Source of the DNA: a virus
Reading direction: 5' to 3' (one strand)
Virus record (IMG/VR): IMGVR_UViG_3300046362_000104
Coordinates: 1-23,360 of that record
Length of the DNA: 23,360 nucleotides
The stretch's first letter is position 1, and every line of letters starts with the position of its first letter. A model generated the notes under the pieces. That model made no database searches and had not been told where the DNA came from. It saw only the letters and a list, made by a program, of their open reading frames with translations. The position numbers and the translations under genes are program-made. Positions 1,662-22,015 of this stretch are shown here, piece by piece.

Positions 1662-2990
1662 CTACCAGCCCGCAAAATCCAGCATCTCCTCACTCGCAAA
1701 ATCAATCGAACTCTCTCCCACCGTCGTAATCCCAGCCCAATCGATCGCCTCATCCCCCGCCGCCATGATGGCCAAGAACAAAGCCCAAGTCCGATCGGCG
1801 TGACCATTGGAGTCTCGATCGGCATCAAAGCGCGGCGTGCCCACAGCGGACACAGACTTTTTCAGCTTATGCAAATCGTCCCGCAGTTCTGGCAGCGGCG
1901 GAATCCGAAGGCCCCGCGTCTCAAATCGGCGCTTCCCTTCCGTCGCCAAAGCCAACTTATTCGCCGAGCCAAAAATAACCCCCTCCACCATCGACCCATA
2001 CTTTTTCTGTGCCCGCTCCACCACCATCTCACCCATGCCCGACTGGTCAAAGCAAGCGCGTTCAATCCGGTATCGCCCCCATAACCGAGCGACGATCGCC
2101 TCTTGTTCCTCAAACGAAATCCGCCGCTCCACCACCAGCTCCCGCACCCACAAAACATCGCCCACCCGCTCGACGACGATCGCAACCCAAAGGTCATTCC
2201 GCCGAGCAATATCCACCCCCAAATAACAGGGATAGCCCGCATATTCAGACGGCTTCCCAGCATCCTGATCCTCACAACTTGCAATCAGCTCAAAGCCAAG
2301 CCAAGCCGACGCTTCATCCAACCACTGCAACTCGAATTCTTGCGCCCAGGCATCCTCATCCGCTAAGGCCGATCGCAACTCCACCACATCTCGATCCAAA
2401 CCCTGCGCCACCGCCTGATGAATATCGACTTGATGCTTTGACCAAGTGCCGTCGTTCGATTGCATCAGGTCATAGAACTTGTTCGCCTTCCCATTGGGTG
2501 TGGACGTAATCCGCAGGTCAAACCCGCGCGAGACGATCGGGAACATCGCTTTCCAGATCTCGCGGCTGTCATGGTGAAACGCAAATTCATCTAGGAATAC
2601 GTTCGCCGAAAACCCGCGAGCCGTATCAGGATTTGCAGGCAGCGCGGTGATGCGTGACCCATTGGGGAGCTGCGCTTCGAGCGCCTTGTATTTGCCCTCC
2701 CACTCGTACTCGATCGTCTCGAACGCCGCCTCATAAATCTTGAGATGACGCTTCACCCCTTCATTCAAAGCCTCATAAGCCTGCCGCTCCCCCCGGCTAA
2801 GAATGACCCACCGATCGCGACCACCTTGCGACTCTGCAAACAAACAACGCTGCACAATCTCCAGCGTCGTCGTCCAGGTCTTCCCGGTCTGACGCGCGAA
2901 CATGCCGATTTTGAACCGCGACTGATCACGGAGCCAAGCCCGCTGATAGTCATAGAGTTCGATCGCGGGCTTTGATTTTTTAGAGACCAT
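1662..2990 (-). CDS. terL: Phage terminase large subunit (Mu gp28-like)
   Basis: The 442-residue protein is the ATPase and nuclease motor that drives DNA into the prohead and cuts it. The N-terminal ATPase has a Walker A motif RQTGKT (33-38), a Walker B VFLDE (131-135) and a coupling motif STPNG (163-167). The C-terminal RNase H-like nuclease shows acidic residues at the expected places: D260 (GVDIAR), D315 (FDQSG) and D399 (HADR). Length and motifs fit the Mu gp28-type large terminase. It is the last gene of the minus-strand operon; its ATG overlaps the end of terS by 11 bases. It is transcribed opposite to the capsid operon, unlike Mu, where packaging and head genes are collinear. Confidence 0.93.
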   Translation of the reverse strand: MVSKKSKPAIELYDYQRAWLRDQSRFKIGMFARQTGKTWTTTLEIVQRCLFAESQGGRDRWVILSRGERQAYEALNEGVKRHLKIYEAAFETIEYEWEGKYKALEAQLPNGSRITALPANPDTARGFSANVFLDEFAFHHDSREIWKAMFPIVSRGFDLRITSTPNGKANKFYDLMQSNDGTWSKHQVDIHQAVAQGLDRDVVELRSALADEDAWAQEFELQWLDEASAWLGFELIASCEDQDAGKPSEYAGYPCYLGVDIARRNDLWVAIVVERVGDVLWVRELVVERRISFEEQEAIVARLWGRYRIERACFDQSGMGEMVVERAQKKYGSMVEGVIFGSANKLALATEGKRRFETRGLRIPPLPELRDDLHKLKKSVSAVGTPRFDADRDSNGHADRTWALFLAIMAAGDEAIDWAGITTVGESSIDFASEEMLDFAGW

Positions 2991-3411
2991 AGATTGCCGC
3001 CGTCACTTGCTTGAGTCGCTCTGGGTCAAGCGATCGTGCCTGCCTCACATCTACCAATTCAATCTCAGGTGCTGTCATATCCAACACCTTAAAAGCCACC
3101 TGAGCCACGACGTTTGCGGGAGTATCAGGGCTAGTCAATAAGGTTTCGATCGCGGCCACCGCTTTAATATTCAACGTCCGTAATTGCCGAATCGAATCCT
3201 CACGAGATTCACTAATCCGCTTGTCTAGCTCAGCAACAAACGCCGGAGATTTAAGCCAGCGTTGCAGCGTCGTTGTCCCCACTCCGACGCGCTCCACCAC
3301 AACCACCTGCTTTTCACCCATCGAAAGCATTCCGATCGCCTGCAATTGCAAGGGTTGTAGTCGGGATTTGCTGCGGGTTGTTTTGGGTTGTTTTGGGTTC
3401 TTTCTAGCCAC
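2980..3411 (-). CDS. terS: Phage terminase small subunit
   Basis: This 143-residue protein probably recognises phage DNA and loads TerL. The N-terminus is Lys/Arg-rich. Residues about 30-60 (GEKQ...VGVGTTTLQRWL) form a helix-turn-helix of the kind seen in small terminases, where the second helix follows a short VGxxTTTLxRW-like turn. A helical segment (65-115) would serve oligomerisation and the C-terminal part would contact TerL. It overlaps terL by 11 bases and the upstream FHA gene by 8 bases, so translation is probably coupled. Position directly before terL is the strongest argument; an unrelated HTH regulator is less likely. Confidence 0.78.
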   Translation of the reverse strand: MARKNPKQPKTTRSKSRLQPLQLQAIGMLSMGEKQVVVVERVGVGTTTLQRWLKSPAFVAELDKRISESREDSIRQLRTLNIKAVAAIETLLTSPDTPANVVAQVAFKVLDMTAPEIELVDVRQARSLDPERLKQVTAAIYGL

Positions 3412-4234
3412 TAATCTCCCTCAACGTCGGCACCCGAGACCGATCGTCCCCCCTATCACCGGGGCGCATATAAACCAAACCTGCGACGCTCGCCACCATG
3501 CCCGCAATATTGGCAATCTTACCGACCTCCTCCTGTGCCTTGGTCGCATTCCACCCGCATACCGAAAGCATGGTGATCGCGAGGCCGATCGTCAGATACT
3601 TCAGATGTTCATGATGGACTCGGAGCCTGTCCTCCTGCTGCTGGTCTCTGGCATCAGCCAGCGAGATCGCCGCCCGGACTTCCTGACCCAGCGACTTAAA
3701 CCCCTCAGCCATATCAGCCCGAAGTTCAGCCCGCATATCCCCGATCGAATCAATTCGGCTATTCATTTGAATCATGTCTTCACGCTGAAGGTTCAGCTCC
3801 TGTTGGATTAGCTCTAGGTCTCGCCGTAGCAAAGCGATCGCCTCAAGCTCAAATCCTTGAGTAGGAGGTTCCTCGCCCCCTAACTGTAATCTTGCCTTGC
3901 TCGAAAGCTCAGCTTTGTAACCATCTCCAAAGAAAAGGTCAATTTCCATATCGTTCCCAAAGGTTAGCGGCTCCCGAATTCTCTCACCTAAAAACCAAAC
4001 ACCACTGCCACTGGGCTTGCCTTTCTGGCCATCAACAACCAACCAAGAATCATTCGATTTAATCAACGTTGCCTGCACCCGCGAGCAAGTTTGAACCCCC
4101 CGACCAATCTTGTAATCCGTCTCAGAAGACCGTCCAAATGTTACGCAATCTCGACTTGTCAAATCAATTTGTCGGATCTTTAAAAGAGTGCCGTCTTTGA
4201 ATTCTTTAAGCAATACATTGTCTTCAAGCAACAT
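3404..4234 (-). CDS. FHA-domain protein with coiled coil and C-terminal hydrophobic segments
   Basis: This 276-residue protein has an N-terminal forkhead-associated domain (about 30-105), a fold that binds phosphothreonine peptides. Visible signatures are FGRS with G34-R35, SRVQ (51-54; canonical SRxH with His replaced by Gln) and SGSGVWFLGERI (75-86; matching the S-x-N-G-T-x-x-N-G-x-x-I pattern with Asn replaced by Ser). Residues 130-205 form a coiled coil and two hydrophobic stretches (213-227 and 240-256) could be membrane segments. It sits second in the terminase operon, overlapping the Mor-like gene by 11 bases and terS by 8. No phage morphogenesis role is known to me for such a protein. 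It could read host Ser/Thr-kinase signals, which are plentiful in cyanobacteria. Confidence 0.75.
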   Translation of the reverse strand: MLLEDNVLLKEFKDGTLLKIRQIDLTSRDCVTFGRSSETDYKIGRGVQTCSRVQATLIKSNDSWLVVDGQKGKPSGSGVWFLGERIREPLTFGNDMEIDLFFGDGYKAELSSKARLQLGGEEPPTQGFELEAIALLRRDLELIQQELNLQREDMIQMNSRIDSIGDMRAELRADMAEGFKSLGQEVRAAISLADARDQQQEDRLRVHHEHLKYLTIGLAITMLSVCGWNATKAQEEVGKIANIAGMVASVAGLVYMRPGDRGDDRSRVPTLREISG

Positions 4235-4595
4235 TGGCTTCTCGCATTAATTTGATGTGTCGATGAATAGAAAAAACTTGCCGTTCTGTCAACCCGAACT
4301 CAAGCGCGGTATGACGGCAAGAATAGAGCATCAAATGTTCACGAATTGCCCGATTCCGATCGCGCAATGCTGCTGGGCTATCTCTTCTACAGCTTCGTTT
4401 AAGATTGGGAATATCAACCGTTTCACCACCGTATAACTGCTGAAGTTTTTTAGTTAGTTCAACGCCAATCAGTAAATGTAACGAGTTTAGAGTTTGAGAA
4501 TCTCGCCGTCCGATCGGCACATAAAGGCGGGTTCCTCCGTATTTTCCCGCAAGCTTTTCAAGCGGTTCTTGCCCTATTAAGTCCTGTAGAAACAT
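4224..4595 (-). CDS. Mor/C-like transcription activator
   Basis: The 123-residue protein resembles the Mor/C family that switches on middle and late promoters of Mu-like phages. It contains two GG-x-x-x-x-(V/I)-P stretches (20-27 and 56-63) like the GG...IYIP element of the Mor dimerisation region. A C-terminal helix-turn-helix follows (about 92-115: HTALEFGLTERQVFSIHRHI), close to the ELAxxYGLSxxxVxxI pattern of the family. It is the first gene of the minus-strand operon and faces the capsid operon across a 156-base AT-rich region, a natural place for an activator acting on both sides. No clear Shine-Dalgarno precedes the ATG. A generic HTH regulator is the alternative. Confidence 0.75.
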   Translation of the reverse strand: MFLQDLIGQEPLEKLAGKYGGTRLYVPIGRRDSQTLNSLHLLIGVELTKKLQQLYGGETVDIPNLKRSCRRDSPAALRDRNRAIREHLMLYSCRHTALEFGLTERQVFSIHRHIKLMREANVA

Positions 4596-4751
4596 GGCTT
4601 TTTTGTGAGTTGAATTGAGGGCTTTTTGTCTTATCTAAAATCTTAATATTTAATTAATCTTTTGAGTGTAGAGATTTGATTAAATTCCTTCAGCCTAGAA
4701 ACATTTTATACTAGCAATTACTGTGTCAATGCTGATGCAGGGCACGATCGT
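4596..4751. promoter_or_regulatory. Divergent regulatory region between the Mor-terminase and capsid operons
   Basis: This 156-base AT-rich gap lies between the start of the minus-strand operon and the ATG of the protease gene. On the plus strand TATACT (4707-4712) is a good -10 without a matching -35 at the usual distance. The recurring motif TTCAGCCTAGAAA (4689-4701) and the short dyad ATTTGATTAAAT (4674-4685) lie upstream. Mor/C-activated promoters typically lack a good -35, so this would suit an activator-dependent late promoter. On the minus strand only weak -10-like hexamers are seen. Confidence 0.5.
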
Positions 4752-5696
4752 ATGACAAGACTCGTAGAAATATTTCGTCAGGGAACGCACATTGATAGTG
4801 CGGGTGTGTCCCGTGAATTTACGGATGAGGCATTGCAGCAGATCCAATCGTCCTACAATCCCGAAAAACATTCCGCCCCATTCCTGGTCAATCACGACGA
4901 ATCCAAACCCAATCGGGGTCTTGTCGATCGGTTGGTCAAGATTGGTCAATCCCTCTACGCCGCTGCAAAAAACGTAGACACAGAATTCCAGGCACAGATT
5001 AACGATCGTCGCCTCCCAGCCCTATCCGCCGCTCTCTATGCCCCCAATGACCCCCGCAATCCCAATCCGGGAAAGTGGGGCCTTCGCCATGTCGCAGCGG
5101 TGCAAATCCCAGCGGTCAAGGGCATGGCTCCGCCTCAGTTTGCGGATGGAGGCGAGCTGCTCGCGATCGAATTCGCGGAGCTGACCGTTCGCGATGAAGA
5201 AGCGCCAACGATCGAAGTCGAAGCGGAAGCGATCGACGAACCACTAGAACAAAAGGAACCACCCATGACTGAAGAAGAATTGAAAGCCCTTAGAAAAATG
5301 CTGGACGAACGATCGGCGGAGCTAGACAAAAAATCCGCCGTCCTGGACGCAGCAGACTTCAACAACTTCGCCGAGGGCTTGCTCAAGGAAGGCCGGGTCT
5401 TTGATGCCAAACTCGCAGCAGCGATCGCCGTCACGCTTCCCAGTGAAGCCGACAGTACGATCGCCTTCGGGGAAAAGGGCGACCCATTGCAAAGCCGATC
5501 GGCCTTCAAAAAGTTCCTAGAAGCTTTGCCCAAAACGGTCGAGTTTGGGGAGCTGACAGCGGGCGCGGCTCCGGCGAAGTATGACGCCAATGCGATCGCC
5601 ACAGCCGCCCGTGATTACAAATCTGAGCAGGAATCCAAGGGCAATTCCATCAGCTTCTCTGAAGCGGTGGCCCATGTAGAAAAAGGAGTGAAATAA
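4752..5696 (+). CDS. Prohead maturation protease with scaffold (Mu gpI-like)
   Basis: The 314-residue protein has the layout of the Mu I-type capsid protease. An N-terminal protease domain (about 1-145) shows NHDES with H48 followed by RGLVDRL, LSAALYAP (S92) and LRHVAAVQIPAVKGM around H113; these match conserved blocks of the family, with H48, S92 and possibly H113 as candidate catalytic residues. An acidic linker (145-170) leads to a helical scaffold domain (172-314). The protease would cleave the scaffold and itself during head maturation. AGGGC (4739-4743) is a modest ribosome site before the ATG. It is the first gene of the long plus-strand late operon. Confidence 0.85.
   Translation: MTRLVEIFRQGTHIDSAGVSREFTDEALQQIQSSYNPEKHSAPFLVNHDESKPNRGLVDRLVKIGQSLYAAAKNVDTEFQAQINDRRLPALSAALYAPNDPRNPNPGKWGLRHVAAVQIPAVKGMAPPQFADGGELLAIEFAELTVRDEEAPTIEVEAEAIDEPLEQKEPPMTEEELKALRKMLDERSAELDKKSAVLDAADFNNFAEGLLKEGRVFDAKLAAAIAVTLPSEADSTIAFGEKGDPLQSRSAFKKFLEALPKTVEFGELTAGAAPAKYDANAIATAARDYKSEQESKGNSISFSEAVAHVEKGVK
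5265..5696 (+). CDS. Nested scaffold protein from an internal in-frame start (Mu gpZ-like)
   Basis: An in-frame ATG at codon 172 of the protease gene is preceded by AAGGA (5253-5257) with 7 bases of spacing, a better ribosome site than that of the full-length gene. Translation from here gives a 143-residue helical protein consisting only of the scaffold part. Mu makes its scaffold gpZ in just this way from the 3' end of gene I, and lambda does the same with C/Nu3. The internal site falls exactly at the protease-scaffold boundary, directly after the acidic Pro/Glu-rich linker. Confidence 0.7.
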   Translation: MTEEELKALRKMLDERSAELDKKSAVLDAADFNNFAEGLLKEGRVFDAKLAAAIAVTLPSEADSTIAFGEKGDPLQSRSAFKKFLEALPKTVEFGELTAGAAPAKYDANAIATAARDYKSEQESKGNSISFSEAVAHVEKGVK

Positions 5697-5698
5697 CC

Positions 5699-6100
5699 AT
5701 GACTCAAGCGACAAATACGATCGTTCCGGTCCAGGCCGGATCACAAACGATCGACCCCTACCGAATTGTCCAAACGCAAACGGGTGTAACAGGTGGGCTA
5801 AACACAGTTGAACGAGGCACCGGCGCAACGAGCGGCTTAACCACGTCCTTTGCACTAATTGGGGTCACTGGGGAACTTGGCATTGATGCCTCGACCGTTG
5901 GAGATATGACCGTTGCCGGAATTGGCTATGTCAAAACAAATCAAGCTGGACTCCAGATTGGTGCCCCCATCACCTCAGATGCGATCGGCCAAGGCGTCGC
6001 TGCCATCACAACCGGAAACCGTTACGTCGGCTTTTTGCTAGAGCAAACCAACGTCGTCGGCCAAATCTGCAAAATCCTAGTTAGCCCCGGAATCCTATAA
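5699..6100 (+). CDS. Capsid decoration (cement) protein, DUF2190-like
   Basis: The 133-residue Gly/Thr/Val-rich protein looks entirely beta-stranded. Its central to C-terminal part (GIGYVKTNQAG..IGAPITSDAIGQGVAAITTGNRYVGF) resembles the repeating pattern of DUF2190-type capsid decoration proteins, in which an AG..V..G..L..D..G.A motif precedes a G.A...... strand and a final I..VL strand. It stands between the protease/scaffold and major capsid genes, the usual place for a head decoration protein. GGAG at 5685-5688, inside the end of the previous gene, serves as ribosome site. Confidence 0.7.
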   Translation: MTQATNTIVPVQAGSQTIDPYRIVQTQTGVTGGLNTVERGTGATSGLTTSFALIGVTGELGIDASTVGDMTVAGIGYVKTNQAGLQIGAPITSDAIGQGVAAITTGNRYVGFLLEQTNVVGQICKILVSPGIL

Positions 6101-6103
6101 ACC

Positions 6104-7063
6104 ATGCCTAAACAACCCTTTGTGGTATCGCCGCAGCTAACCGCCGTTGCGATCGCCTACCAAAATCAAAAACTAATTGCAGACTCAATCCTGCCTCCCA
6201 CTCCGGTTCCATCCTCGGAATTTAAGTGGACCCTGTATCCACCCGAAGAAGCCTTCACCGTTCCCGATACGCGAGTATCCCGTCGCGGCTCCGTCAATCA
6301 AATCAGCTTCACAGCCCTGGAACAAACCAGCTCAGTGGACTCCTACGGCCTCGAAGACCCAATCCCCTACTCAGACATCCTGAAGGCGGAAGACGGAAGA
6401 CGAGCGGGCATTAATAACTACAATCCCCAGGCCCATTCGGTCGAGTATCTGAGCAAATTGCTGGACCTCGATCGGGAAATCCGAGTTGCGGGTGCGGTCA
6501 ATAACATCGCCGCCTACGCCACCAATCGCCGGGTCACATTGGCCGGGACATCCCAGTACAGCGACTACGCCAACAGCAACCCGCTATCGGACTTGCTGAA
6601 CCGATTGGATGTGCCGTTAGTCCGTCCTAACGTCCTATGGATGGGCCAAGACGGTTGGCGGATCATCCGTCAGCATCCGCGCATTGTGGAGGCTGTCAAA
6701 AGTACTGGAGCGGGTCTCGGGGCACAGGGCACGATCGTTCGTCAAGCGCTTGCTGAACTCCTAGAGATTGATGAAGTGTTGGTCGGCGAAGGTTGGGTCA
6801 ATACTGCCAAGCGCGGACTTCCAGCCACCATGAACCGTGTCTGGGGTAAAAACGTCGGCATGATTTACCGTGACAAACTCGCAGGCCCGCAAACAGGTCT
6901 AACCTTTGGCTTTACGGCCATGTGGAAGGGCAAGTTTGCAGGCACGATCGAAGACCCAAATATCGGTCTCGAAGGCGGGGTGATCAACCGCGTCGGAATG
7001 AACTGCAAAGAGGTCATCTGTGCCCCTGATGCAGCCTTCTTCATTCAAAATGCATTCGCGTAA
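6104..7063 (+). CDS. Major capsid protein
   Basis: The 319-residue protein is probably the main shell subunit. The N-terminal stretch (9-35: SPQLTAVAIAYQNQKLIADS, then ILPPTPV) and the segment with FTVPDTRVSRRG, FTALEQTSSVDSYGLEDPIP (about 50-90) recall capsid proteins of B3-like transposable siphophages. Later come RPNVLWMGQDGWRIIRQHP (about 175-195) and a C-terminal part ending in a typical beta segment. Position after protease/scaffold and decoration genes and before gp35- and gp36-like genes supports the call. The sequence differs from the classic Mu gpT type. A weak GGAA lies upstream of the start. Confidence 0.85.
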   Translation: MPKQPFVVSPQLTAVAIAYQNQKLIADSILPPTPVPSSEFKWTLYPPEEAFTVPDTRVSRRGSVNQISFTALEQTSSVDSYGLEDPIPYSDILKAEDGRRAGINNYNPQAHSVEYLSKLLDLDREIRVAGAVNNIAAYATNRRVTLAGTSQYSDYANSNPLSDLLNRLDVPLVRPNVLWMGQDGWRIIRQHPRIVEAVKSTGAGLGAQGTIVRQALAELLEIDEVLVGEGWVNTAKRGLPATMNRVWGKNVGMIYRDKLAGPQTGLTFGFTAMWKGKFAGTIEDPNIGLEGGVINRVGMNCKEVICAPDAAFFIQNAFA

Positions 7064-7080
7064 TTTACTAGGAACCAATC

Positions 7081-7311
7081 ATGACTGATGCCGCTAAGAC
7101 ACCCGCTAAAGAAGCTGCTCCCGTAGCCGCTAAAGAAGCTGCTCCCGTAGCCGCTAAAGTGGAACTCAAAAGTTTCAAATGCCGGAACCCGATTGAACAC
7201 AACGGGAAATCCTACGCAACAGGTTCGCTCATCAAACTCGACCCTGAAACGGCTCAGAATCTTCTGAGACTAGGGGCGATCGTAGACCCTACTCCCAAGC
7301 CTGAGGAGTAA
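7081..7311 (+). CDS. Small Mu gp35-like protein with duplicated Ala-rich tail
   Basis: The 76-residue protein has an Ala/Lys/Pro-rich N-terminal arm (1-27) followed by a small domain (28-70: FKCRNPIEHNGKSYATGSLI, then KLDPETAQNLLRLGAI). That domain fits the short head-tail region proteins of Mu-like phages with an HNGK.Y..G..I.L....A..L...GA pattern (gp35/FluMu type). AGGAA at 7070-7074 is the ribosome site. It precedes gp36- and gp37-like genes exactly as in Mu. The N-terminal arm contains a perfect 24-base tandem duplication. Confidence 0.7.
   Translation: MTDAAKTPAKEAAPVAAKEAAPVAAKVELKSFKCRNPIEHNGKSYATGSLIKLDPETAQNLLRLGAIVDPTPKPEE
7111..7158 (+). repeat. Perfect 24-base tandem duplication
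   Basis: The unit at 7111-7134 is repeated without mismatch at 7135-7158 and encodes EAAPVAAK twice. A partial copy of its end (CCGCTAAA) precedes it at 7103-7110. No synonymous change separates the copies, which suggests a recent slippage event or very recent selection for arm length. Confidence 0.95.
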
Positions 7312-7314
7312 TTC

Positions 7315-7746
7315 ATGTACGTCACTCAAGCTGATTTGATTCGGTTGTTCGGGCTGTCTGAGATTGAGAGTTTGTCTCAGCTCGACTATCCCGGCAACGG
7401 CACGATCGACACAGTGCGAGTGGATGCAGCCTGCGAATACGCAACTCAGGAAATTGATTGTTTTTTGACGTTGCGTTATGCATTGCCGATCGCGTCGGTG
7501 CCTTTAGTTCTCACCAACAAGGCTGCCGACATTGCCCGATACCAGCTCGAACACAATGACCCTCGCGAGGACGTGCGGAAACGCTACGAAGATGCGATCG
7601 TCTGGCTCAAGTTGGTGGCGTCGGGAAAGATTGGTTTAGGGCTAGATAGTGGCGGGGCTGAGATTGAATCTGAGACTCCCACCTACTCGGTGGCAGCGCT
7701 GCATCCTAGCCCTGTGTTCACGGACCTGTCACTCTCGGGGTACTGA
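7315..7746 (+). CDS. Mu gp36-like head-tail connector protein (DUF1320)
   Basis: The 143-residue protein begins MYVTQADLIRLFGLSEIESL, a typical start of DUF1320/gp36 proteins (Y.T..DL...FG..E...L). The helical bundle continues with ACEYATQEIDCFLTLRYALP, then PLVLTNKAADIARYQL, which match the family's alternating D...I..YL..RY.LP and ...a.diA.Y.L blocks. These proteins are thought to sit at the head-tail joint. A strong GAGGAG just upstream of the ATG is the ribosome site. The last base of its TGA is the first base of the next gene's ATG. Confidence 0.88.
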   Translation: MYVTQADLIRLFGLSEIESLSQLDYPGNGTIDTVRVDAACEYATQEIDCFLTLRYALPIASVPLVLTNKAADIARYQLEHNDPREDVRKRYEDAIVWLKLVASGKIGLGLDSGGAEIESETPTYSVAALHPSPVFTDLSLSGY

Positions 7747-8186
7747 TGATTCAGCAGGTGGAGCAGCTCCTAATCGATCGGCTAAAGGCAACCCCCAACC
7801 TTGGCAACCTCGTTCACGTCCTGGGCTTTCCCGGCAAACCGAACGACGACGCGGCGAGAATTCGGGGGAGCGCTGCAATCCTCGTTAAGTTTGGGCGAAT
7901 GAAGCTCGAACCCGAGGGCGGCAATGGGTATCAGACCGTGCAATATGGCTCCCTGGATTTCGAGTTTCGGCTCTTGGTCAAGGATTTACGATCGCACGTC
8001 GGAGCCTACGACCTCATCGAAATCATCGTCGATCGCATCTCTCGCTATCAGCCGCCCAATCTCCCACCGTGGGGCTTTGGGGTATCTGGTTTCCAGGTGA
8101 GCGAGGCGGTGTTAATCGATCGGGGTGAGGCGATTTGGGATTGGGGAATGACGGCAAAAATTGATTTGATTTATCACAAGGAATAG
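7746..8186 (+). CDS. Mu gp37-like tail completion protein (DUF1834)
   Basis: The 146-residue protein follows gp36 in a one-base overlap, as in Mu-like phages. It starts with a helix (IQQVEQLLIDRLKA), then beta strands (AAILVKFGRMK; YGSLDFEFRLLVKD), a second helix with AYDLIEIIVDRISR, a PPWGFGVSGFQVSEAVLID block and a final WDWGMTAKIDLIY strand. This pattern is that of DUF1834 and of minor tail terminator proteins. It would join or terminate the tail tube. Confidence 0.78.
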   Translation: MIQQVEQLLIDRLKATPNLGNLVHVLGFPGKPNDDAARIRGSAAILVKFGRMKLEPEGGNGYQTVQYGSLDFEFRLLVKDLRSHVGAYDLIEIIVDRISRYQPPNLPPWGFGVSGFQVSEAVLIDRGEAIWDWGMTAKIDLIYHKE

Positions 8187-8191
8187 AAATT

Positions 8192-8989
8192 ATGAGCGGA
8201 ATTGCGATCGGTTTTGGGGATGCAGGTGTGCGATCGACGTCGATCGCGGGCGGTCCCGGCAATCAAAAATTATTCAGATATCCCATCTTCGGATTTGACC
8301 TAGACCAATCATCCAAGAATGAAGAAGTCTTGGCGTATAACGCAGGCATCCACCAGGTCGAAGACATCCTCGACGGTGCCACCACCACCACCCTTAAGCT
8401 ATCCACGGAAGTGGTCAACTGGGGCATGATGGGCCTAGCTCAAAACCAAATCGAGCGGACCTTAACGAACTTCAGCCTGCCCCGACTCAAGCGGGCAACG
8501 GTGCCACTGACCGCGCCCTACGAAATCGTAGACATAGAACTCACTGCTGCTGCTACAGCCAAGACCTTGGTAAGCGTCGATCGCTATGGATCATGGGGCC
8601 AAACCGGAACCCTCGCGATCTCGGCTACGGCACCTGCCGCCCGATCGGTGCAGATCAACGTAGTAGCCACTAAGCTCGTCTTCAACGCGGCTCAAGCGGG
8701 CGCACCCGTCACCTACATCACAGACCAGATTATCCCGGCTGCAAACGTCTATGGCGGGCCTGGACAGTCGGCGCAGATCGGCGAGATGGAATTCTGTGGA
8801 ACGATGTACGACAACTCAATTGACCCCAGCAAAGGCCAGTTTCTGTGGATTCCCCGTATCAAACGATTCACCGCGCCAAAGCTGAACTTTGCAGGCGGTA
8901 AGCCCAAGATTGAGACCGAGTTCCGGTGCTTATCCGTCCCCGGCTGGACTAATCCGTTTTTGCAAGTTGACCTACATTCGATCGCCTAA
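8192..8989 (+). CDS. Putative major tail tube protein
   Basis: The 265-residue, mostly beta-stranded protein lies between the gp37-like gene and the gene before the tape measure, the expected place of the tail tube subunit. Strand pairs such as TTTTLKLSTEVVNWGMMGLA (60-80), the inserted segment AKTLVSVDRYGSWGQTGTLA (about 120-145) and the C-terminal strands KPKIETEFRCL fit tube proteins of non-contractile tails. No sheath gene is present. AAGGA upstream is the ribosome site. The call rests on position and fold impression more than on motifs. Confidence 0.65.
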   Translation: MSGIAIGFGDAGVRSTSIAGGPGNQKLFRYPIFGFDLDQSSKNEEVLAYNAGIHQVEDILDGATTTTLKLSTEVVNWGMMGLAQNQIERTLTNFSLPRLKRATVPLTAPYEIVDIELTAAATAKTLVSVDRYGSWGQTGTLAISATAPAARSVQINVVATKLVFNAAQAGAPVTYITDQIIPAANVYGGPGQSAQIGEMEFCGTMYDNSIDPSKGQFLWIPRIKRFTAPKLNFAGGKPKIETEFRCLSVPGWTNPFLQVDLHSIA

Positions 8990-9540
8990 TGAAGTGGATT
9001 GAACTAGACCTAGACACCTACACTTTCGAGGGCGTAGACGGGGAGATTCACACCTTTCCCGGCTGCTCCCTTGTCGGTTTTTTCGAGTTTGAAAACCGCC
9101 TCATCGAGCTGCAAAGTTTTTTGTTGGCGGCCTCTGATGTGATGCCTGTGCAATCGCTTTACCAATCGGATAGGCGATTTAGATGGACGATCGACCGATG
9201 CCTAAAACTGAATGGAATCGACCCGTCCTGGTGCAACTGGCAGATTGTTGAACAGATGCTATTTAGTCCTGGACTCTTACGGGAAGTGAACAGTCCTAAG
9301 TCGTCGGGTTCTACGCCTGGGGTGTCCAGCCCCACGCTGGCCGAATTGATTGCGGGGATTGCTCTTTCTACTGGGAGTTTGACGGAGGCGATCGAACTGG
9401 CAAAGTCCCAGCCGTTGAATGCTTTGGTCGATATTATTGAAGCCCAGACTAAGGCCCAATTGCCTCCTGAGGAACAGCATCAAAGGGGCTTTGAGGAATG
9501 GATGGAGAATGCGAGGAATGAAGCCTTTGGGGTGCAGTAA
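8989..9540 (+). CDS. Putative tail assembly chaperone
   Basis: This 183-residue, largely helical protein is encoded directly before the tape measure gene, overlapping it by one base, and starts one base into the tail tube stop. Tail assembly chaperones occupy this position in nearly all long-tailed phages and bind the tape measure protein. Residues 1-105 form one domain; a Ser/Pro/Gly linker (102-116) leads to a second helical part (116-183). The family often uses a frameshift to make two products. Here everything is in one frame, and I found no slippery heptamer in the linker. Function is inferred from position. Confidence 0.55.
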   Translation: MKWIELDLDTYTFEGVDGEIHTFPGCSLVGFFEFENRLIELQSFLLAASDVMPVQSLYQSDRRFRWTIDRCLKLNGIDPSWCNWQIVEQMLFSPGLLREVNSPKSSGSTPGVSSPTLAELIAGIALSTGSLTEAIELAKSQPLNALVDIIEAQTKAQLPPEEQHQRGFEEWMENARNEAFGVQ

Positions 9541-12500
9541 TGGCGGGACGGCAGATTACTTTAGGGCTACTGATATCGGCGACGGGTGGTTCTAGGACGA
9601 TCGCTGAACTGTTGGCATTGCAGGCAGCGGCGCGGCGGATTGCTGATGAAGCGCCGGGTATTTTGCAAGTGTCGAATGCGCTGGGAATAACAGGGCAAGC
9701 GGCCCGCCAACTCTCTCAAGACACTGGCCTCTCTAGCGCCTCACTCGGAGCCGCTGCCACACGATATCGAGAGCTTGCATCTGCTGGGGCAACACTGGCT
9801 GAGCGACAAGTTGTTTTGGGGTTGGAGCTTGGCGTAACGTCGGAACAATTCGATCGAATCTCTCAATCAGCCCTAGCATCAAGAGCAGCCATCTCAGGGA
9901 TTGCGGCGGTAGCAGGTGGAGTGGCCGCAGGCATTGGGGCGATCGGAAATAAAGCGTCCTTAGAGTTCAGTAAATTTGATGCCCAGCTCCGACAGTTCGG
10001 GGTCATTGGGGAGGCATCTGCTCCCCAGGTCGCGGCATTGCGATCGGAGGTCGAACGACTAGGAACCTCAACCCAAAAGACCCCGACTGAAATTGCAGCG
10101 CTGTCGATCGAATTGACTAAGGCGGGCTTCTCCGCCGACGCAGCAAAGACAGCCCTTGGGGGAATCGTTCTGAGTTCCCAGGCGACGGGTGAGGGACTAG
10201 CCCGGACGGGTGAGGTGATCGGGAATGTGATCAACCAATTCGGATTGAAGGCCAAAGACACCGCCAACATCGCTGACCTCCTCACCACCATCTCGAACAA
10301 AACGGCATCCGGTACCAATGACCTCGGCGAGGCATTATCCTACGTCGGCACCGAGGCCAAAGGGTCTAACCAATCGCTCAAGGATACGCTGCTCAGTCTC
10401 GGTCTACTGGCTGATGCGGGCATTAAGGGTAGTAGCGCTGGTACGGGACTCGCTGAGGCCCTGAAGCGGCTTAAATTGGCCTCGGCTAATGCGAGCACTG
10501 AGCTGGACGATCTTAAATCCAAGGGCAGCAAAACAGCCGTCGCAGCTTTTAAGACGATCGAAGCGGGCGTCCGAGACGCGAACGGGCAACTGAAGCCCAT
10601 GCCTGAGATTCTCAAGACTTTAAAGGTGGGGTTGGGTTCGGTCCAAAATCAGGCGGATAAAGACCTAATTGGGAACGCTTTATTCGGTGTCCAGGGCGGG
10701 CGCGTGATGAACGTTTTGCTGGCGGCCAGTGCGGAAAAAGTTAAGACCTTATCGGGAGAATTAGATAGAAGTGCAGGCGCTTCCAAAAAAGCAGGGGACG
10801 CACTGTCTCAAGGCCCAGCGGCGGGCCTCAAACAACTAGAGGCCACCACCAGCGTCGCCCTGGTCAAGGTCGGGGAACTGCTTCAAGGCCCGTTCTCGCT
10901 GCTCATCGGCGTGTCTCAGAACTTTGTGTCAACCTTTGTCAAACTGCCTGGGCCAATACAAGCGGCGATCGTGGCGACGGCGGGCTTTGCGGCAATCCTA
11001 GCAGCGGCGACGGCGGCATTGGCAGCCTACAAACTGTCCCAAGGTCAACTGATTTTGGAGCAGGCGATCGCCGCTGCGGGCATGATTGCCAAGACAGGTG
11101 CAACGGTCGCATCAACCGCAGCAACGATCGCTCTCAGTGGGGCAGAGCGAGCCGCAGCTATTTCAGGGGCAATCAGTAATATCCAAATCAATGCTGGGAC
11201 GATCGCGTTAGTCGCCCAGTCAGTCGCGGCGAAAGCGACCGCATTGGCGACGACGGTGATGGCTGCTGCGAGTGGAGCGGCTGCGGCGGTGATGTCAGGC
11301 TCTTTCGTCCCGGCGATGCTTGCAGCGGTCGCAGCGGCGGGGCCGTTGCTATTGACAGTAGGGTTAGCCGTAGGAGCTATTGCCGCATTGAGTGCAGCAT
11401 TCTCCCGATCGCCCGGTGCTGTGTTCGGGGCAACGGTTGAGGACAATACCAACAAACTTAAAAAGCTACGAGAGGAAGGCGATAAACCGATCGTCGTCAA
11501 GGCCGATGCCGCGCAGGTTAACAACCTCGGCGATTCAATTCAGCGCGCCCTGAAACTGATGGGGGAGAAGGGTCCAATTCTGGGACTCCAAGAAGCCTTT
11601 GCCGGGGTGACAAATGCCGCCAAGGAGTATGGCGATCAGGGCACGTTTATTACCAGTGCCCAACGCGGGAATCAGATTGCAATGGAAGCCCTTGCAACTC
11701 AGGCCCAAGAGACGGGCGCGATCGTAGACCAGTCCCGCGACATCATGAAAAAGTTCGGCGTTGAGATGCTGGACTCCAAAGATAAAGCCCGTCTCGGGGC
11801 CAGTGGCATCAAAGATTTTACCGCCGCATCTGAGAAGCAAATCAAGACGATCGAAGACTCGATCGCAATCCTAGAAGACCAGAAAAAAGCGGCGACAACA
11901 AATAGTCAGAGAGAGGTAATCCAGACCCAGATTGCTCTATTTGAAAGCTCCAAAGCTTCGCTTCAGAAAAGGGCTGTTGCACTCACTGGAGACAGTGAAG
12001 CCCTTAAGACAAACACCGACAAAACCAAGGAGGCCGCACAGGCTCAAGCCGAGTTAGACACTGCCATCAAGAAGATTAACGAAGCGGCTACCAAGCGTGA
12101 AAAAGGAACCAAAACAGAAGACGAAGCCTTCGCCGCAATTCAGGCCGCACAGTCAGAATTAAAAACGCTTAAGCTCAATTCTGAACAACGTGTTTCACTC
12201 AATAGAGAATCTAGCGAGGCGATTACTAAAATCCGTAAAACGGAAATCAAAGAAATTAAAGAGGCCCTAGCCGATGGGACTGTAAACGAAAAGGAAGCGA
12301 TCGATCGTTTGCAATCAGTGCGATCGAAAAGTGGCACTGAGACCGCCGTTGCCAAAGCTGCCGCGTCGGAAATTATTGCCATTCGTAAAAGCACAGTCGA
12401 TGCAGAAATTGCCACCATTCAGGCGGGCATTGCGGAAATTGATGCCCAAAAATCAGCGGGCAAAATCACCGAGGTCAAAGCTGAAAAGGACACCACTGTA

Positions 12501-14543
12501 TTGAAGCAACAAGAGATTCAAAAACGAATTGACTTAGCCCGCGAGGAGGTTGAGTTAACCAGTGGAAACGATCGGACCAAAGCCCTAGCCAATGTCAAAA
12601 AACTGTCGGCTGAACTCGAAAAAGAAAAAGCCGAATCAATCAAGCGCGTCAAAGCTTTGGAGCAAAAGGAACGCGATGAAAAACTCGCCCTAGAGCTGGC
12701 CCAAATCAAAGCCCAAATTGCCCAAGTCGAAGCCGCCAAAGCGAGCGGACGAATCGACGACGTAGAAGCTGAGAAGGAACTCAGTGCCTTAAAAATTAAA
12801 GAGCTGGAAAAGCAGGCCAAAGCCGCCGAAGAGCGGGCCAATGCTGAGAGCGATCCAAAGGTGCGGGAGAAACTGAAGGCTGAAGCCGATCGCCTCAATG
12901 CTGAAGTTGAGAAAGCCGCTGCTGAATCCGTCGCCCGTATTTTGGCCATCAAACTCAAGGCAGTCGAGGAGGAAAATGCGAAGGCACTCGCCTTGGTCAA
13001 GCTCTCGGAGCAGGAACGCAATAACGAAATCCTTCGCGGTCTCAACACCCAAACCACCAATCAAGAACAGGCCCAAAAAGCCAAGCTCGATACCCAACGA
13101 TCGACCCTAGAACAGGAACTCGAAGCCGCTCAAAACAATCAAAAGAAACTCGAAGAACTCGAAGGCGAAATCACTAATCCAAAAGCCCGTGAGGAATACG
13201 AAAAGCGGAAGCTTGATGCTGCAACCAAGACCGCTGGGGCGATCGGAAAACTTCTGGAAAATGAAGCCCAACAGATTGAATTCCAGCGTCAACAGACCAT
13301 TCGCATCATCGAACAAGAACAAGATGCCCGGTCCAAAGCGATCGACCTGCAAATTGCTCAGGCGAATAAACTTGCCGCTGTTCGTAATGCCAGTGCGACG
13401 ACGGCTGAGCTAGCTTCTCAAAGGGAAATCGCTGCGATCGATTCCGCCAACCGTGCCCTGCAAACCCAAGGCAAAATCCTTGAGGCCCGATCGCGACTGG
13501 AGAAAGCCCGCCTAGATGCGGCATTGTTCCTAGCTGAGAAGTCTGGCAATCCCGAGGAAGCCGCTGCGGTCAAAGCCGCTCAATTTGCCGCAGAGCAGAC
13601 CGCTCAGCAAGCCTCACTTGCCCAACAAATCAAAGCCGAAGACTTCGCCAATCGTCGCGCCATCATTGAGGCCAAAATCAATGAACTCAAAGCAAAGCAG
13701 GCCGTCCTCACCGCCCAACAAGCCGTCGCCGAAGCAAACCTCACCGCCGCCAAAGCAAAGGGCGAGGCGGATGCAGCATTGGCCAAAGCAAACACCTTGG
13801 CTCCAGGTGCGGCCAAAGACAAAGCTGTCGCGGACGCCAAGCAACAACAAGCGCTGGCATCTGAGCAAGGCGCAGCTCAGAAGGCAAATGCTGGGGCAGG
13901 TTTAGAGGTTGCAAAGCAGGGCGCGCAGCTCGCCGGGGAAGCCGTCAAGGAAGCCACCCAAAACGCCGCAGCCTCCAAAGAGTCTCAGGCATTGCAGCAA
14001 CAGGCCCTCAACCTCGAACAGCAGACCGCAAAGGCCCGCTTTGAATCTGAACAGTCGATCGCCCGTCAGAACGCTTTGCTGGGGCAGCAGCAGGCCACTC
14101 AGAACGCGATCGCAGGCGATGCCGAACGAACCAACGCCGCTCGGGGTGGAACAGGTTCAGGCGGCACACCACTACCAGGGCGAAGAGACGGCGGTTCGGT
14201 GTCCGCTGGTACAGCCTATCTAGTGGGTGAGCGTGAACCTGAGGTCTTCATCCCCGGCGTCAGTGGGACCATCCTGAACCAAGCCCAAATCACCCGGAAC
14301 CTAAGTGCCCTGCAAGCCGCTCAATCGATCGGCGGTATGGGCACCCCAACGATCGCCGTGTCCCAAAATTCAACCGTGACCATGGGCCAATCCGCGATCG
14401 TTCAAGAGTTGCAGGCATTGCGAAAACTGGTGGGCGATCGTCAACCTGTTTCGACCATGAATGCAACCTTTGAGGCTCCTGATTCAGGGAGCTTTGACCA
14501 GTTTGCTAAGCTGCAACGATCGTTGTTGAGGAATAAATTATGA
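9540..14543 (+). CDS. Tail tape measure protein
   Basis: At 1,667 residues this is by far the largest gene and sets tail length. Residues about 140-470 resemble the TP901-type tape measure core (LEFSKFDAQLRQFGVIGE..., long Ala/Gly/Leu helices). Hydrophobic stretches lie at about 473-500 and 598-622. A very long charged coiled coil spans about 763-1540 and contains 96-residue repeats. The C-terminus has GGSVSAGTAYLVGEREPEVF (about 1547-1566), a closing motif common in tape measures. At roughly 1.5 angstroms per residue the tail would be near 250 nm (inference). Start and stop overlap the neighbours (TAATG and ATGA), indicating coupled translation. Confidence 0.93.
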   Translation: MAGRQITLGLLISATGGSRTIAELLALQAAARRIADEAPGILQVSNALGITGQAARQLSQDTGLSSASLGAAATRYRELASAGATLAERQVVLGLELGVTSEQFDRISQSALASRAAISGIAAVAGGVAAGIGAIGNKASLEFSKFDAQLRQFGVIGEASAPQVAALRSEVERLGTSTQKTPTEIAALSIELTKAGFSADAAKTALGGIVLSSQATGEGLARTGEVIGNVINQFGLKAKDTANIADLLTTISNKTASGTNDLGEALSYVGTEAKGSNQSLKDTLLSLGLLADAGIKGSSAGTGLAEALKRLKLASANASTELDDLKSKGSKTAVAAFKTIEAGVRDANGQLKPMPEILKTLKVGLGSVQNQADKDLIGNALFGVQGGRVMNVLLAASAEKVKTLSGELDRSAGASKKAGDALSQGPAAGLKQLEATTSVALVKVGELLQGPFSLLIGVSQNFVSTFVKLPGPIQAAIVATAGFAAILAAATAALAAYKLSQGQLILEQAIAAAGMIAKTGATVASTAATIALSGAERAAAISGAISNIQINAGTIALVAQSVAAKATALATTVMAAASGAAAAVMSGSFVPAMLAAVAAAGPLLLTVGLAVGAIAALSAAFSRSPGAVFGATVEDNTNKLKKLREEGDKPIVVKADAAQVNNLGDSIQRALKLMGEKGPILGLQEAFAGVTNAAKEYGDQGTFITSAQRGNQIAMEALATQAQETGAIVDQSRDIMKKFGVEMLDSKDKARLGASGIKDFTAASEKQIKTIEDSIAILEDQKKAATTNSQREVIQTQIALFESSKASLQKRAVALTGDSEALKTNTDKTKEAAQAQAELDTAIKKINEAATKREKGTKTEDEAFAAIQAAQSELKTLKLNSEQRVSLNRESSEAITKIRKTEIKEIKEALADGTVNEKEAIDRLQSVRSKSGTETAVAKAAASEIIAIRKSTVDAEIATIQAGIAEIDAQKSAGKITEVKAEKDTTVLKQQEIQKRIDLAREEVELTSGNDRTKALANVKKLSAELEKEKAESIKRVKALEQKERDEKLALELAQIKAQIAQVEAAKASGRIDDVEAEKELSALKIKELEKQAKAAEERANAESDPKVREKLKAEADRLNAEVEKAAAESVARILAIKLKAVEEENAKALALVKLSEQERNNEILRGLNTQTTNQEQAQKAKLDTQRSTLEQELEAAQNNQKKLEELEGEITNPKAREEYEKRKLDAATKTAGAIGKLLENEAQQIEFQRQQTIRIIEQEQDARSKAIDLQIAQANKLAAVRNASATTAELASQREIAAIDSANRALQTQGKILEARSRLEKARLDAALFLAEKSGNPEEAAAVKAAQFAAEQTAQQASLAQQIKAEDFANRRAIIEAKINELKAKQAVLTAQQAVAEANLTAAKAKGEADAALAKANTLAPGAAKDKAVADAKQQQALASEQGAAQKANAGAGLEVAKQGAQLAGEAVKEATQNAAASKESQALQQQALNLEQQTAKARFESEQSIARQNALLGQQQATQNAIAGDAERTNAARGGTGSGGTPLPGRRDGGSVSAGTAYLVGEREPEVFIPGVSGTILNQAQITRNLSALQAAQSIGGMGTPTIAVSQNSTVTMGQSAIVQELQALRKLVGDRQPVSTMNATFEAPDSGSFDQFAKLQRSLLRNKL
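12408..12983 (+). repeat. Two 96-residue tandem repeats in the tape measure coiled coil
   Basis: The units 12408-12695 (residues 957-1052) and 12696-12983 (1053-1148) have the same period of 288 bases. Matching blocks include IDAQKSAGKITEVKAEKD against VEAAKASGRIDDVEAEKE, SAELEKEKAESIKRV against NAEVEKAAAESVARI. They are diverged at DNA level. A shorter, weaker copy (EALADGTVNEKEAIDRLQS) precedes them at about residues 905-925. The units look like helical-hairpin modules whose number could tune tail length. Confidence 0.75.
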
Positions 14544-18930: not shown

Positions 18931-20601
18931 TTGACCTTGGACCGCCCTACCTTTGACGAAATTGCATCTATAGCTGATGGCCGTGATATTACGCGGCCTT
19001 GGATTGCGCCGCTATTGGCAAGCCAAGATGAGATTTTGGAGAGCAAAGGTGGTGGCGATTTACTCGTGTATGAGCAGCTTTTGACGGATACCCAGATTGA
19101 GAGCGGGTATCAGCAGAGATTTAGTGCGTTGATTGGCTGTGAGAATGAGGTGGTGGCAGGCGGCACGAAGCGCCTGGACATTAAGGCGGCGGATTTTGTC
19201 CGTGAGCAACTTTCTGGGATTAACTGGGACGACATTACGGAGAAGCAGCTTTACGCCACTCACTACGGCTATGGCGTGGCGGAATGTCTGTGGATGAGGG
19301 ATGGGGCGAATGTGATGCTCGACGACACTCGTGATGGCATCAGAGTGCGGAATCGTCGGCGGTTTAAGTTTGCGCCCGATCGGTCCCTCAGACTCATTGT
19401 GTGGGGCGATATGTTTCAGGGTGAGACGATGCCCGATCGAAAGTTTTGGACGCTGCGATCGGGCGGGGATAATCATGATGAACCCTACGGTCGCGGGCTA
19501 GGTCACAACCTCTACTGGCCCGTTTTCTTCAAACGCAATGACATGAAGTTTTGGCTGCGGTTTTTGGAGAAGTTTAGTCAGCCCACGGTCAAGGTGGAGT
19601 ATCCGTCGGGGATGCCAAAAGACCAACAGGATGAGCTGTTGCAGTCGGCCTATCGGATGGCTTCGGCTTCGGCATTGAAGGTGCCCCAAGGGACGGTGAT
19701 TGATTTTCTGGAGGCAGGCAGGTCTGGAACTGCGGACTATGTGAAGCTCTGGGAGCTGATGGATGCGGCGATTTCTAAGACCATCCTGAGCCAGACGATG
19801 ACGACGGATAGCGGGTCGTCACTGTCCCAAGCGCAGGTGCATGAGGGCGTTGCGTCGCGGCTATTGAAGCGGGATGCGGATTTGATTTGCGCTTCGTTTA
19901 ATCGCAGTGTGATCCGGTGGTTAGTGGATTGGAATTATCCCGGTGCGGCTTATCCCAAGGTGTGGAGAAAAATTGATCCGGCTGCTGATTTGAAGGGGAT
20001 GGCCGACCGAGATAAGGTGCTGTTCGATATGGGCTATGCGCCAAATATTGAGTACGTGGTTGAGACCTATGGTGAGGGATTCCGACCTGCTGAGAAGGGT
20101 GAGGCAAGTCCGATCGCGCTCAATGGGGCACAGGTCACGGCGCTGACGGATGTGATTAGTCAGGCGATTAATGATGGCTGGATTCCCGAGCTTGCTGTGG
20201 CGACGATTCAGGCGAGCTTCCCAACGATCGGGGTTGAACTCATCCAGGCGATCGCGGAGCAGCTCCAAGCGCAGGCGGACAAGACAACCATTCAGCCTGA
20301 GTCGAGTGATACTCCGATCGTCCCGGCTGATCAGCCTGCTCCGGTGAGTGCGGAATTTGCGGAAAAAGAACCGGACACGGTAGACCTCTACACCGATCGG
20401 CTCCGCACCACAGCGGGCAAAGAGGTTGACGGCTGGGTTGACCAAATCTCGGGGCTACTGGATACAGCAGGAGACCTGAATACTTTTAGCGAGACCCTGC
20501 TGACGCTGTACCCCGACTTGAAGGGCGATCGGTTGCGAGACATTATGGGCGATGCAGTCCTGGCCGCGAGCATTGCGGGGAGCTTAGAAGGCGATGCCTA
20601 G
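18931..20601 (+). CDS. Portal protein (Mu gp29-like, DUF935)
   Basis: The 556-residue protein forms the ring through which DNA enters and leaves the head. Recognisable blocks are LLTDTQIESGYQQRFSALIG (about 49-69), WDDITEKQLYATHYGYGVAE (98-118), YGRGLGHNLYWPVFFKR (184-200), FLEKFSQPTVKVEYP (210-224), then VPQGTVIDFL and ILSQTMTTDSGSSLSQAQVH (about 285-310), all typical of DUF935. The C-terminal 150 residues are helical. An in-frame TGA lies directly before the start, leaving a TTG (18931) or the next TTG (18937) as start, without clear ribosome site; translation may rely on coupling. In Mu this gene stands next to terL; here it follows the tail genes. Confidence 0.92.
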   Translation: MTLDRPTFDEIASIADGRDITRPWIAPLLASQDEILESKGGGDLLVYEQLLTDTQIESGYQQRFSALIGCENEVVAGGTKRLDIKAADFVREQLSGINWDDITEKQLYATHYGYGVAECLWMRDGANVMLDDTRDGIRVRNRRRFKFAPDRSLRLIVWGDMFQGETMPDRKFWTLRSGGDNHDEPYGRGLGHNLYWPVFFKRNDMKFWLRFLEKFSQPTVKVEYPSGMPKDQQDELLQSAYRMASASALKVPQGTVIDFLEAGRSGTADYVKLWELMDAAISKTILSQTMTTDSGSSLSQAQVHEGVASRLLKRDADLICASFNRSVIRWLVDWNYPGAAYPKVWRKIDPAADLKGMADRDKVLFDMGYAPNIEYVVETYGEGFRPAEKGEASPIALNGAQVTALTDVISQAINDGWIPELAVATIQASFPTIGVELIQAIAEQLQAQADKTTIQPESSDTPIVPADQPAPVSAEFAEKEPDTVDLYTDRLRTTAGKEVDGWVDQISGLLDTAGDLNTFSETLLTLYPDLKGDRLRDIMGDAVLAASIAGSLEGDA

Positions 20602-21808
20602 TTATCCCTGGCAGCAGCTCCCGTTCCAAGAGGCGATCGATTACTTTGCCACTAAGCAGAATATCGATACGGATTCGTGGCGGGATTTGCAGGGCTTGGA
20701 CTATGACGTTGCCTTTGCGGTGGCCGGGGCTAAAGGCGCGCTGTTGCAGGATATGCGTGAGGCGGTGGAGAAGGCGATTACGGAAGGGACGACGCTGCAA
20801 GAGTTTCGCAAGGATTTCGATCGCATTGTGCAGACTCGTGGGTGGAGTTACCAGGGCGATCGGGATTGGAGAACCAACACCATTTACAACACCAATCTCC
20901 GCACCGCCTACGCGGGGGGACGGTGGGAACAGATTCAGCAAACCAAGGCCAAGCGACCCTACCTACAGTGGCGACATGGAGGCAGCGGGGATCCAAGACC
21001 GTTACATATTGCCCTCGATCGTAAAGTATTTAGCCTGGATGATCCGTTCTGGCAGACCATGGGCAATCCACCGATCGGGCATGGGTGCAGGTGTTCCGTT
21101 TTTGCGTTGAACGATCGGGACCTGGAGCGATTGAAGCTGAAAGTGAAAGATGCGCCGAAGTTGGGGAGTGAGTATGGTGGGATTCCGGTGGAGCCTGATC
21201 CGGGTTGGGGTGGTGGCCATGGACGGAGTAATCCTGAGCAGCGACGTAAGCTCTTGGTCAGCATTACCCAACGACTTCAGCCCGCCTTAGCCGTCGCCGT
21301 CGAGCAAGAGGCGAGGTTTGCGTCACTTAGATTTAGTCAGGACTTTGGGGCAGTTGAAAAGGCCCAGATGCAGGCGATTCGCGATCGTGTGGCTAGCGGT
21401 GCAACGTCGCCAGATTTGCCCCGATCCGATGGGTTGTACAGTGTGATTGATGAAATTGGCACGGCTCGGCCTGAGCTATTTCGTGGGGTTGTTGATGGGC
21501 TAGGAGACTTGCAAGCGATGGCGATCGTGACCAATACGAATGATGCTTTAGTTTTGAATCACTTGGTTTCAGCCCCATGGAATCTACGTGGAATGGCCAT
21601 GACAGGTCAGCAGCTAAAAGGGGCAGGAAGTCGTCTAATTGCTGATGTCGTGAGGGAAAGCATCGAGTTAGGATATGAGGGCAGAATCCGTTTGAGTCCT
21701 AGCCCTGAGGTCGTTGGTTTTTATCAGAAGCTTGGGTTCATAGGTGAGGGCGATCGGATGGTTCTGCGACCGGATGCTGCAAAAAAACTGATGGAGAGAT
21801 TCCCATGA
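20594..21808 (+). CDS. MuF (gpF-like) head protein fused to a C-terminal GNAT acetyltransferase-like domain
   Basis: Residues 1-220 form a MuF/SPP1 gp7-type minor head protein: R93-x-N-T-I-x-x-T-N-L-R-x-A-Y-x-x-G-R110, RPYLQWRHGGSGDPRP (121-136), and HGCRCSV with C165 and C167. Residues about 280-400 look like a GNAT domain: strand ALVLNHLVSAP (318-328), acetyl-CoA motif Q340-L-K-G343-A-G345 followed by a helix (346-360), and IRLSPSPEVVGFYQKLGFIG (365-384), the typical final part. MuF proteins sit in the virion in few copies and in some phages carry toxin domains. The ATG overlaps the portal stop by 8 bases; the stop overlaps the next ATG. Confidence 0.85.
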   Translation: MPSYPWQQLPFQEAIDYFATKQNIDTDSWRDLQGLDYDVAFAVAGAKGALLQDMREAVEKAITEGTTLQEFRKDFDRIVQTRGWSYQGDRDWRTNTIYNTNLRTAYAGGRWEQIQQTKAKRPYLQWRHGGSGDPRPLHIALDRKVFSLDDPFWQTMGNPPIGHGCRCSVFALNDRDLERLKLKVKDAPKLGSEYGGIPVEPDPGWGGGHGRSNPEQRRKLLVSITQRLQPALAVAVEQEARFASLRFSQDFGAVEKAQMQAIRDRVASGATSPDLPRSDGLYSVIDEIGTARPELFRGVVDGLGDLQAMAIVTNTNDALVLNHLVSAPWNLRGMAMTGQQLKGAGSRLIADVVRESIELGYEGRIRLSPSPEVVGFYQKLGFIGEGDRMVLRPDAAKKLMERFP

Positions 21809-22005: not shown

Positions 22006-22015
22006 TGGAGTAATC

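Follow-up and report, generated by a model that had tools for sequence, protein, structure and literature searches.

Gene content of the terminase operon

The window, by which we mean the whole stretch of DNA analysed here (a 23.4-kb IMG/VR virus record), contains a compact leftward operon that runs from a Mor-type activator gene through an FHA domain gene to the small and large terminase subunit genes (Table 1). Successive reading frames overlap by 11 nt (Mor and FHA), 8 nt (FHA and TerS) and 11 nt (TerS and TerL). The FHA gene was confirmed as a minus-strand ORF encoding 276 aa. The initial annotation, made without database searches, had placed this gene in an operon with Mor, TerS and TerL, and profile searches agree with this for each neighbour, as the Mor protein scores above the Pfam threshold, TerL is matched strongly and TerS is matched weakly by PHROG families of small terminase subunits. 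The terminase and head operons are divergently oriented, and the intergenic region between them, which features sequence blocks kept in three phages, is a probable promoter site for both. The portal, F and G genes come after the tail genes (18931-22453 and 4752-14543), while in Mu-like relatives they adjoin TerL; from gene order, the head module appears to be a rearranged Mu head module.

Table 1. Features of the terminase operon and its surroundings, with window coordinates
Feature	Position	Strand	Evidence
Terminase large subunit (TerL)	1662..2990	-	PF03237 and PF17289; phrog_5909, E=3e-52
Terminase small subunit (TerS), HTH type, not Mu gp27 type	2980..3411	-	Weakly matched by PHROG families of small terminase subunits (best E=4.1e-5)
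Protein of 276 aa with FHA domain, coiled coil and helical hairpin (probably 2TM)	3404..4234	-	ORF, Pfam, AF2 models
Two hydrophobic helices (residues 213-228 and 239-256) with a short loop between; probable membrane hairpin	3467..3598	-	AF2, hydropathy, dN/dS
Coiled coil (residues ~126-212), running into the first hydrophobic helix	3599..3859	-	AF2 helix
FHA domain (residues 6-111 in the model)	3902..4219	-	PF00498; AF2; fold search; profile match to cyanobacterial mobile-element FHA domains
Mor/C-type late transcription activator	4224..4595	-	PF08765, 26.1 bits (> 24.9); phrog_836 late transcriptional activator, E=1.1e-14
Intergenic region separating the divergent Mor-FHA-TerS-TerL and head operons	4596..4751	.	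Blocks kept in three phages, e.g. CTAGAAACATT.TATA
Mu I-like head maturation protease, encoded by the gene that opens the divergent head operon	4752..5696	+	phrog_976, E=1.7e-54

Identification of the FHA domain

A protein-level Pfam search matched residues 31-99 (3938-4144) to PF00498 with a score of 25.0 bits (gathering score 20.7, E=2.6e-5), a match that an initial six-frame search had missed, and the same family was matched in all three homologues. Full-length AF2 prediction from the three sequences gave an unusable N-terminal half, so residues 1-118 were folded separately from an alignment of the three phage sequences only. The best of five models was all-beta (pLDDT 75, pTM 0.69), with strands at residues 6-13, 16-24, 30-35, 39-43, 46-50, 53-60, 63-68, 90-92, 97-103 and 106-111; the other four were much poorer, so the fold is given by one good model. 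When this model was used in a fold search, the top 44 PDB rows were all FHA domains or FHA-bearing proteins, with a probability of 1.00 for most top rows, TM-scores of ~0.5 and E values of ~0.003, none below 0.001. Because these E values are only ~0.003, the assignment is carried by the agreement of profile and fold and by neither alone. On this combined basis the FHA domain proposed in the initial annotation, a fold that recognises phosphorylated proteins, is confirmed as genuine, and the predicted structure corresponds to the 11-stranded beta-sandwich of the FHA fold. Searches of PDB sequences with the protein returned chance matches only. An FHA reference alignment containing four wrong-strand rows gave no match to the window domain and serves as a negative control only.

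The protein shares with PF00498 its fold, its strand order, the GR and SR motifs and the DG..SxSG turn. The GR, SR and SxSG motifs are as the initial annotation had described them, but the canonical His is Gln54 and the canonical Asn is Ser77, in the window protein and likewise in both homologues, and a Thr of the family is replaced by Val79. Gly34-Arg35 and Ser51-Arg52 are invariant across the three phages (R35 codon, 4130-4132; S51 codon, 4082-4084), and Gly78 is retained. Since R35 and S51 are invariant while His is replaced by Gln and Asn by Ser, phosphothreonine binding by this domain is plausible rather than proven. A further difference from the Pfam family is its context, as the domain is followed in the same polypeptide by a coiled coil and a C-terminal hairpin and is encoded in a phage terminase operon. 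It is a known domain in a new architecture and a new placement.

A predicted coiled coil leading into a conserved hydrophobic hairpin

Beyond the FHA domain, AF2 predicts one helix over residues 126-228 (pLDDT 76-92 over residues 131-220) and a second over residues 233-254, which bears out the coiled coil that had been read from the sequence. Weak Pfam, NCBIfam and PHROG matches to the coil (FapA, MakB, Rz-like and DUF7321) were rejected as coiled-coil or chance matches. The two hydrophobic segments of the initial annotation also appear as two essentially uncharged helices, although their hydropathy is moderate (GES 1.13 and KD 1.22 for residues 210-228; GES 1.02 and KD 1.47 for residues 238-256). 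The hairpin is the most conserved region of the protein: its dN/dS is 0.018-0.044, while the FHA part has values of 0.11-0.19 and the coil of 0.17-0.23. Despite the moderate hydropathy, the absence of charge in both helices and a dN/dS of 0.02-0.04 make a transmembrane hairpin likely, with the FHA part in the cytoplasm; we infer membrane insertion from these properties.

Relatives and probable host

The only homologues found are encoded on two IMG/VR contigs and are 75% identical to the window protein. Both contigs keep the Mor-FHA-TerS-TerL order that the initial annotation had singled out as worth looking for, and both proteins have R35 and S51 at the same locus; the corresponding overlaps are 35/17/11 nt in each relative, compared with 11/8/11 nt in the window. 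No homologue was detected, at the sensitivity used, in 50,697 phage records, PLSDB or the genome collection, and a TerL search of genome contigs revealed no cyanobacterial prophage. One relative, G001 (36,362 bp), has a 299-bp overlap between its ends (296 positions identical) and therefore looks complete at ~36 kb, closing on itself.

Within the whole window, CGATCG occurs 159 times where 6.5 occurrences are expected from base composition, a 24-fold excess that reads as a cyanobacterial-type, HIP1-like signature. In addition, G001 encodes a 528-aa protein (L022:17351-18937, minus strand) that contains hydrophobic segments near its N-terminus and distantly matches phrog_38189, and the PLSDB matches of this protein from the close relative are confined to hypothetical proteins on two Oscillatoria acuminata plasmids. 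Together, the CGATCG excess and the Oscillatoria plasmid matches make a cyanobacterium the likely host. The 528-aa protein is possibly a DNA-translocase-type ATPase.

FHA and membrane-coil genes in other cyanobacterial mobile elements

A search of a viral structure library produced one convincing FHA match, in Nodularia phage kac68v162. In kac68v162 and the other Nodularia phages of its group that were examined, the FHA gene overlaps a gene encoding a hydrophobic hairpin and a coiled coil, and an FHA gene likewise overlaps a 2TM/coiled-coil gene on plasmid pC052_F of Nostoc sp. C052. The two hydrophobic segments of these partner proteins were located by the same rough hydropathy scan as in the window protein, and their coiled coils were judged from the sequence alone. 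The plasmid region (175000-223442) also bears a Ser/Thr kinase gene as well as IscB and TnpB genes.

Comparison by hhalign aligned the window FHA domain with the Nodularia/Nostoc domains at E=5.9e-4, a score reached by 0/300 column shuffles, whereas the match to unrelated FHA domains was weaker (E=0.023). With a small reference set of two distinct lineages, the window domain thus appears to be of the same subtype as the cassette domains. The Gln-for-His substitution is common to the window and Nodularia domains and the Ser-for-Asn substitution to the window and Nostoc domains, so these changes look like variants of an FHA type found in cyanobacterial mobile elements rather than decay. This bears on the idea of a degenerate FHA fold kept as a protein-protein scaffold that no longer reads phosphate, for example as a structural or tail-assembly accessory. 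The His and Asn replaced here by Q54 and S77 do define the binding site of most FHA domains. All three phages nevertheless retain R35 and S51, the phosphate-contact residues, together with the adjacent R52, and with the same Gln occurring in the Nodularia domain and the same Ser in the Nostoc domain we regard such a scaffold as very improbable.

The window protein and the cassettes of Nodularia phages (Ravarandavirus, e.g. kac68v162 gp089-gp090) and pC052_F have in common an FHA domain coupled to a hairpin and a coiled coil. They differ in that the cassettes comprise two proteins encoded beside antirepressor, integrase or HTH genes, whereas the window has one fused protein beside the terminase. 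BLASTP of the coil and hairpin against the Nostoc partner gave no meaningful match, and the hairpin precedes the coil in the Nodularia/Nostoc partners but follows it in the window. Given this dissimilarity and reversed order, what is observed is recurrence of a combination, in few cases, rather than proven common descent of a module. That the same parts turn up in unrelated cyanobacterial phages as well as on a plasmid, in one case as a fusion within a late operon, nevertheless suggests that FHA plus membrane-coil may be a reusable module of cyanobacterial phages and plasmids.

FHA domains otherwise seem rare in phages, judging from the single clear viral structure match and from a PHROG search with five typical FHA domains that returned no convincing family. 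Two further candidates were rejected: the FHA gene of Acinetobacter 'phage MD-2021a' sits among type II secretion genes, tRNAs and trpE, and that of a human-gut 'Bacteriophage sp.' encodes a 497-aa FHA protein adjoining a rhomboid-like membrane protein. Literature searches combining FHA with cyanophage, terminase or Nodularia phage found nothing. A phage-borne FHA domain in a phosphorylation-linked system is provided by PfkB, an FHA-bearing kinase of the prophage KKP module, which controls Pf lysogeny and defence (PMC11341870). PfkB differs from the window protein as it is a kinase with a C-terminal FHA domain (PMC11341870). No kinase was recognised in the window.

Such a precedent would suit a phosphothreonine adaptor, tethered to the membrane, that redirects Ser/Thr-kinase signalling of the host late in infection by sequestering or recruiting a phosphorylated host protein, with no direct role in lysis. 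This adaptor would also fit the invariant R35 and S51, the cyanobacterial-type host and the position of the Ser/Thr kinase gene ~25 kb from the two-gene cassette on the Nostoc plasmid. On the other side, no kinase was recognised in the three contigs and the binding surface has lost its canonical Asn and His to substitution, and we consider this account rather doubtful.

The lysis/releasin slot of Mu-like phages

In Mu-like relatives, the interval from Mor to TerS is occupied by lysis genes, then by DUF2730 or a similar TM and coiled-coil protein, and then by a gp26-type gene, whereas in the window the FHA protein is its sole occupant. Mu gp25 belongs to DUF2730; it is a releasin, a cytoplasmic protein tethered to the membrane, and is required for SAR-endolysin release (PMC9239132). 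Like gp25, the window protein is encoded just upstream of the terminase genes, here downstream of Mor, and it too would be a helical, cytoplasmic protein made late and tethered to the membrane. They share no sequence similarity, and gp25 is a protein of ~99 aa with one N-terminal TM segment and no FHA domain. The releasin topology of a single N-terminal TM segment (N-out/C-in) is not found in the window protein, which has two C-terminal hydrophobic helices. Homology to DUF2730 was ruled out, as hhalign gave E values of 0.28-0.35 and the protein has no profile match to PF10805. The resemblance is limited to position and general build.

Profiles for DUF2730, amidase_2, phage lysozyme and protein kinases gave nothing acceptable in the three contigs (window and two relatives), in which no endolysin was found; a DUF2730 match on G002 was rejected as it scored 14.2 bits, under the cut-off, inside a 1,438-aa frame. 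Many proteins of G001, among them some of the small ORFs, were also scanned with Pfam and PHROGs, which recognised no lysis gene or holin, with the reservation that a very divergent endolysin would escape these libraries.

The initial annotation had further suggested that packaging or late expression might be tied to host kinases, or that packaging might be anchored at the membrane. Direct support for either was not obtained, and what speaks for packaging is adjacency. A factor that holds the terminase or the procapsid to the membrane, or that controls the terminase via a phosphorylated partner, would account for the overlap with the TerS frame and for the co-operonic TerL in the relatives found. 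In related Mu-like phages, packaging proceeds without any such protein, and the FHA and membrane-coil parts lie away from terminase genes in the Nodularia phages and on the Nostoc plasmid. Moreover, it is before TerS that Mu-like phages have their lysis/DUF2730 slot, so adjacency to the terminase does not in itself point to packaging, and we judge this function improbable.

Alternatively, the hairpin itself could make a hole, the protein being a holin- or pinholin-like pore former with the FHA domain gating its trigger. Conservation is highest in the two helices, which are weakly hydrophobic and rich in Gly, Ala and Ser, the protein is the clearest two-helix membrane candidate among the listed late genes of the window (tape measure aside), and no holin was recognised among the G001 proteins scanned. 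The window protein itself matches no holin family in Pfam or PHROGs, and the endolysin that might accompany a holin was not found. We know of no holin resembling a 276-aa protein with a large cytoplasmic part, which also counts against a pore former. All in all, we think it very unlikely.

Our tentative preference, which falls short of an even chance, is for an FHA adaptor that is made late, is attached to the membrane and acts at the inner membrane, its gene lying in the lysis/releasin slot, with lysis itself as the weakest step. Such a protein would have its FHA domain in the cytoplasm and a two-helix hairpin in the inner membrane, with a self-associating coiled coil connecting the two. It would belong to the FHA and membrane-anchored coiled-coil module of cyanobacterial phages and plasmids, here fused into one protein that takes the slot of the lysis genes and DUF2730 releasin (Mu gp25). 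Late in infection, the FHA domain might dock on a partner, probably one bearing phosphothreonine, and the coiled coil and hairpin might oligomerise in the membrane and control or perform a membrane step, such as lysis timing or permeability.

In favour of this membrane-attached adaptor, the FHA domain is identified by both sequence and fold, the hairpin is under the strongest constraint and the tight operon is conserved in the relatives found. The slot appears equivalent to that of Mu-like phages, no DUF2730, amidase, lysozyme or kinase was recognised in the three contigs and no lysis gene among the G001 proteins scanned, and the FHA and membrane-coil parts recur as two overlapping genes in Nodularia siphophages and on the Nostoc plasmid, with FHA domains closer to the window domain than generic ones are. 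Against it stand the lack of DUF2730 similarity, the different topology and the moderate hydropathy of the hairpin; replacement of the FHA Asn and His may mean that phosphopeptide binding is weak or lost. In addition, no endolysin was found as a partner, the Nodularia/Nostoc cassettes are not beside recognised lysis genes, and the fused form is carried by only the three phages found. In a stronger form, cyanobacterial phages and plasmids would share a dedicated module whose FHA domain responds to threonine phosphorylation in the host by gating a coiled-coil/two-helix membrane effector; in this lineage it would have taken over from the lysis/releasin module, so that host kinase signalling would control lysis or membrane permeability. 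We estimate this to be unlikely. The protein opens the direct question of whether cyanophages read host Ser/Thr phosphorylation, and raises that of how a Mu-headed phage without a recognisable endolysin, holin or releasin lyses its host.

Additional features of the phage genomes

No Mu transposase was seen among the G001 proteins examined. Alongside Mu-type head genes (portal, F, G, protease and Mor), this genome encodes a large primase-like protein and a fragment of a tyrosine recombinase. It also has a short minus-strand ORF (L023:2158-2547) made up nearly entirely of Gly-Ser/Asp-Tyr repeats (GSGYGSGDGDG...), which is likely to be low-complexity sequence. In the window, the Mu F-like protein (20594-21808) has a weak C-terminal match to GNAT acetyltransferases at residues 339-383 (Pfam E=0.001, below the cut-off).
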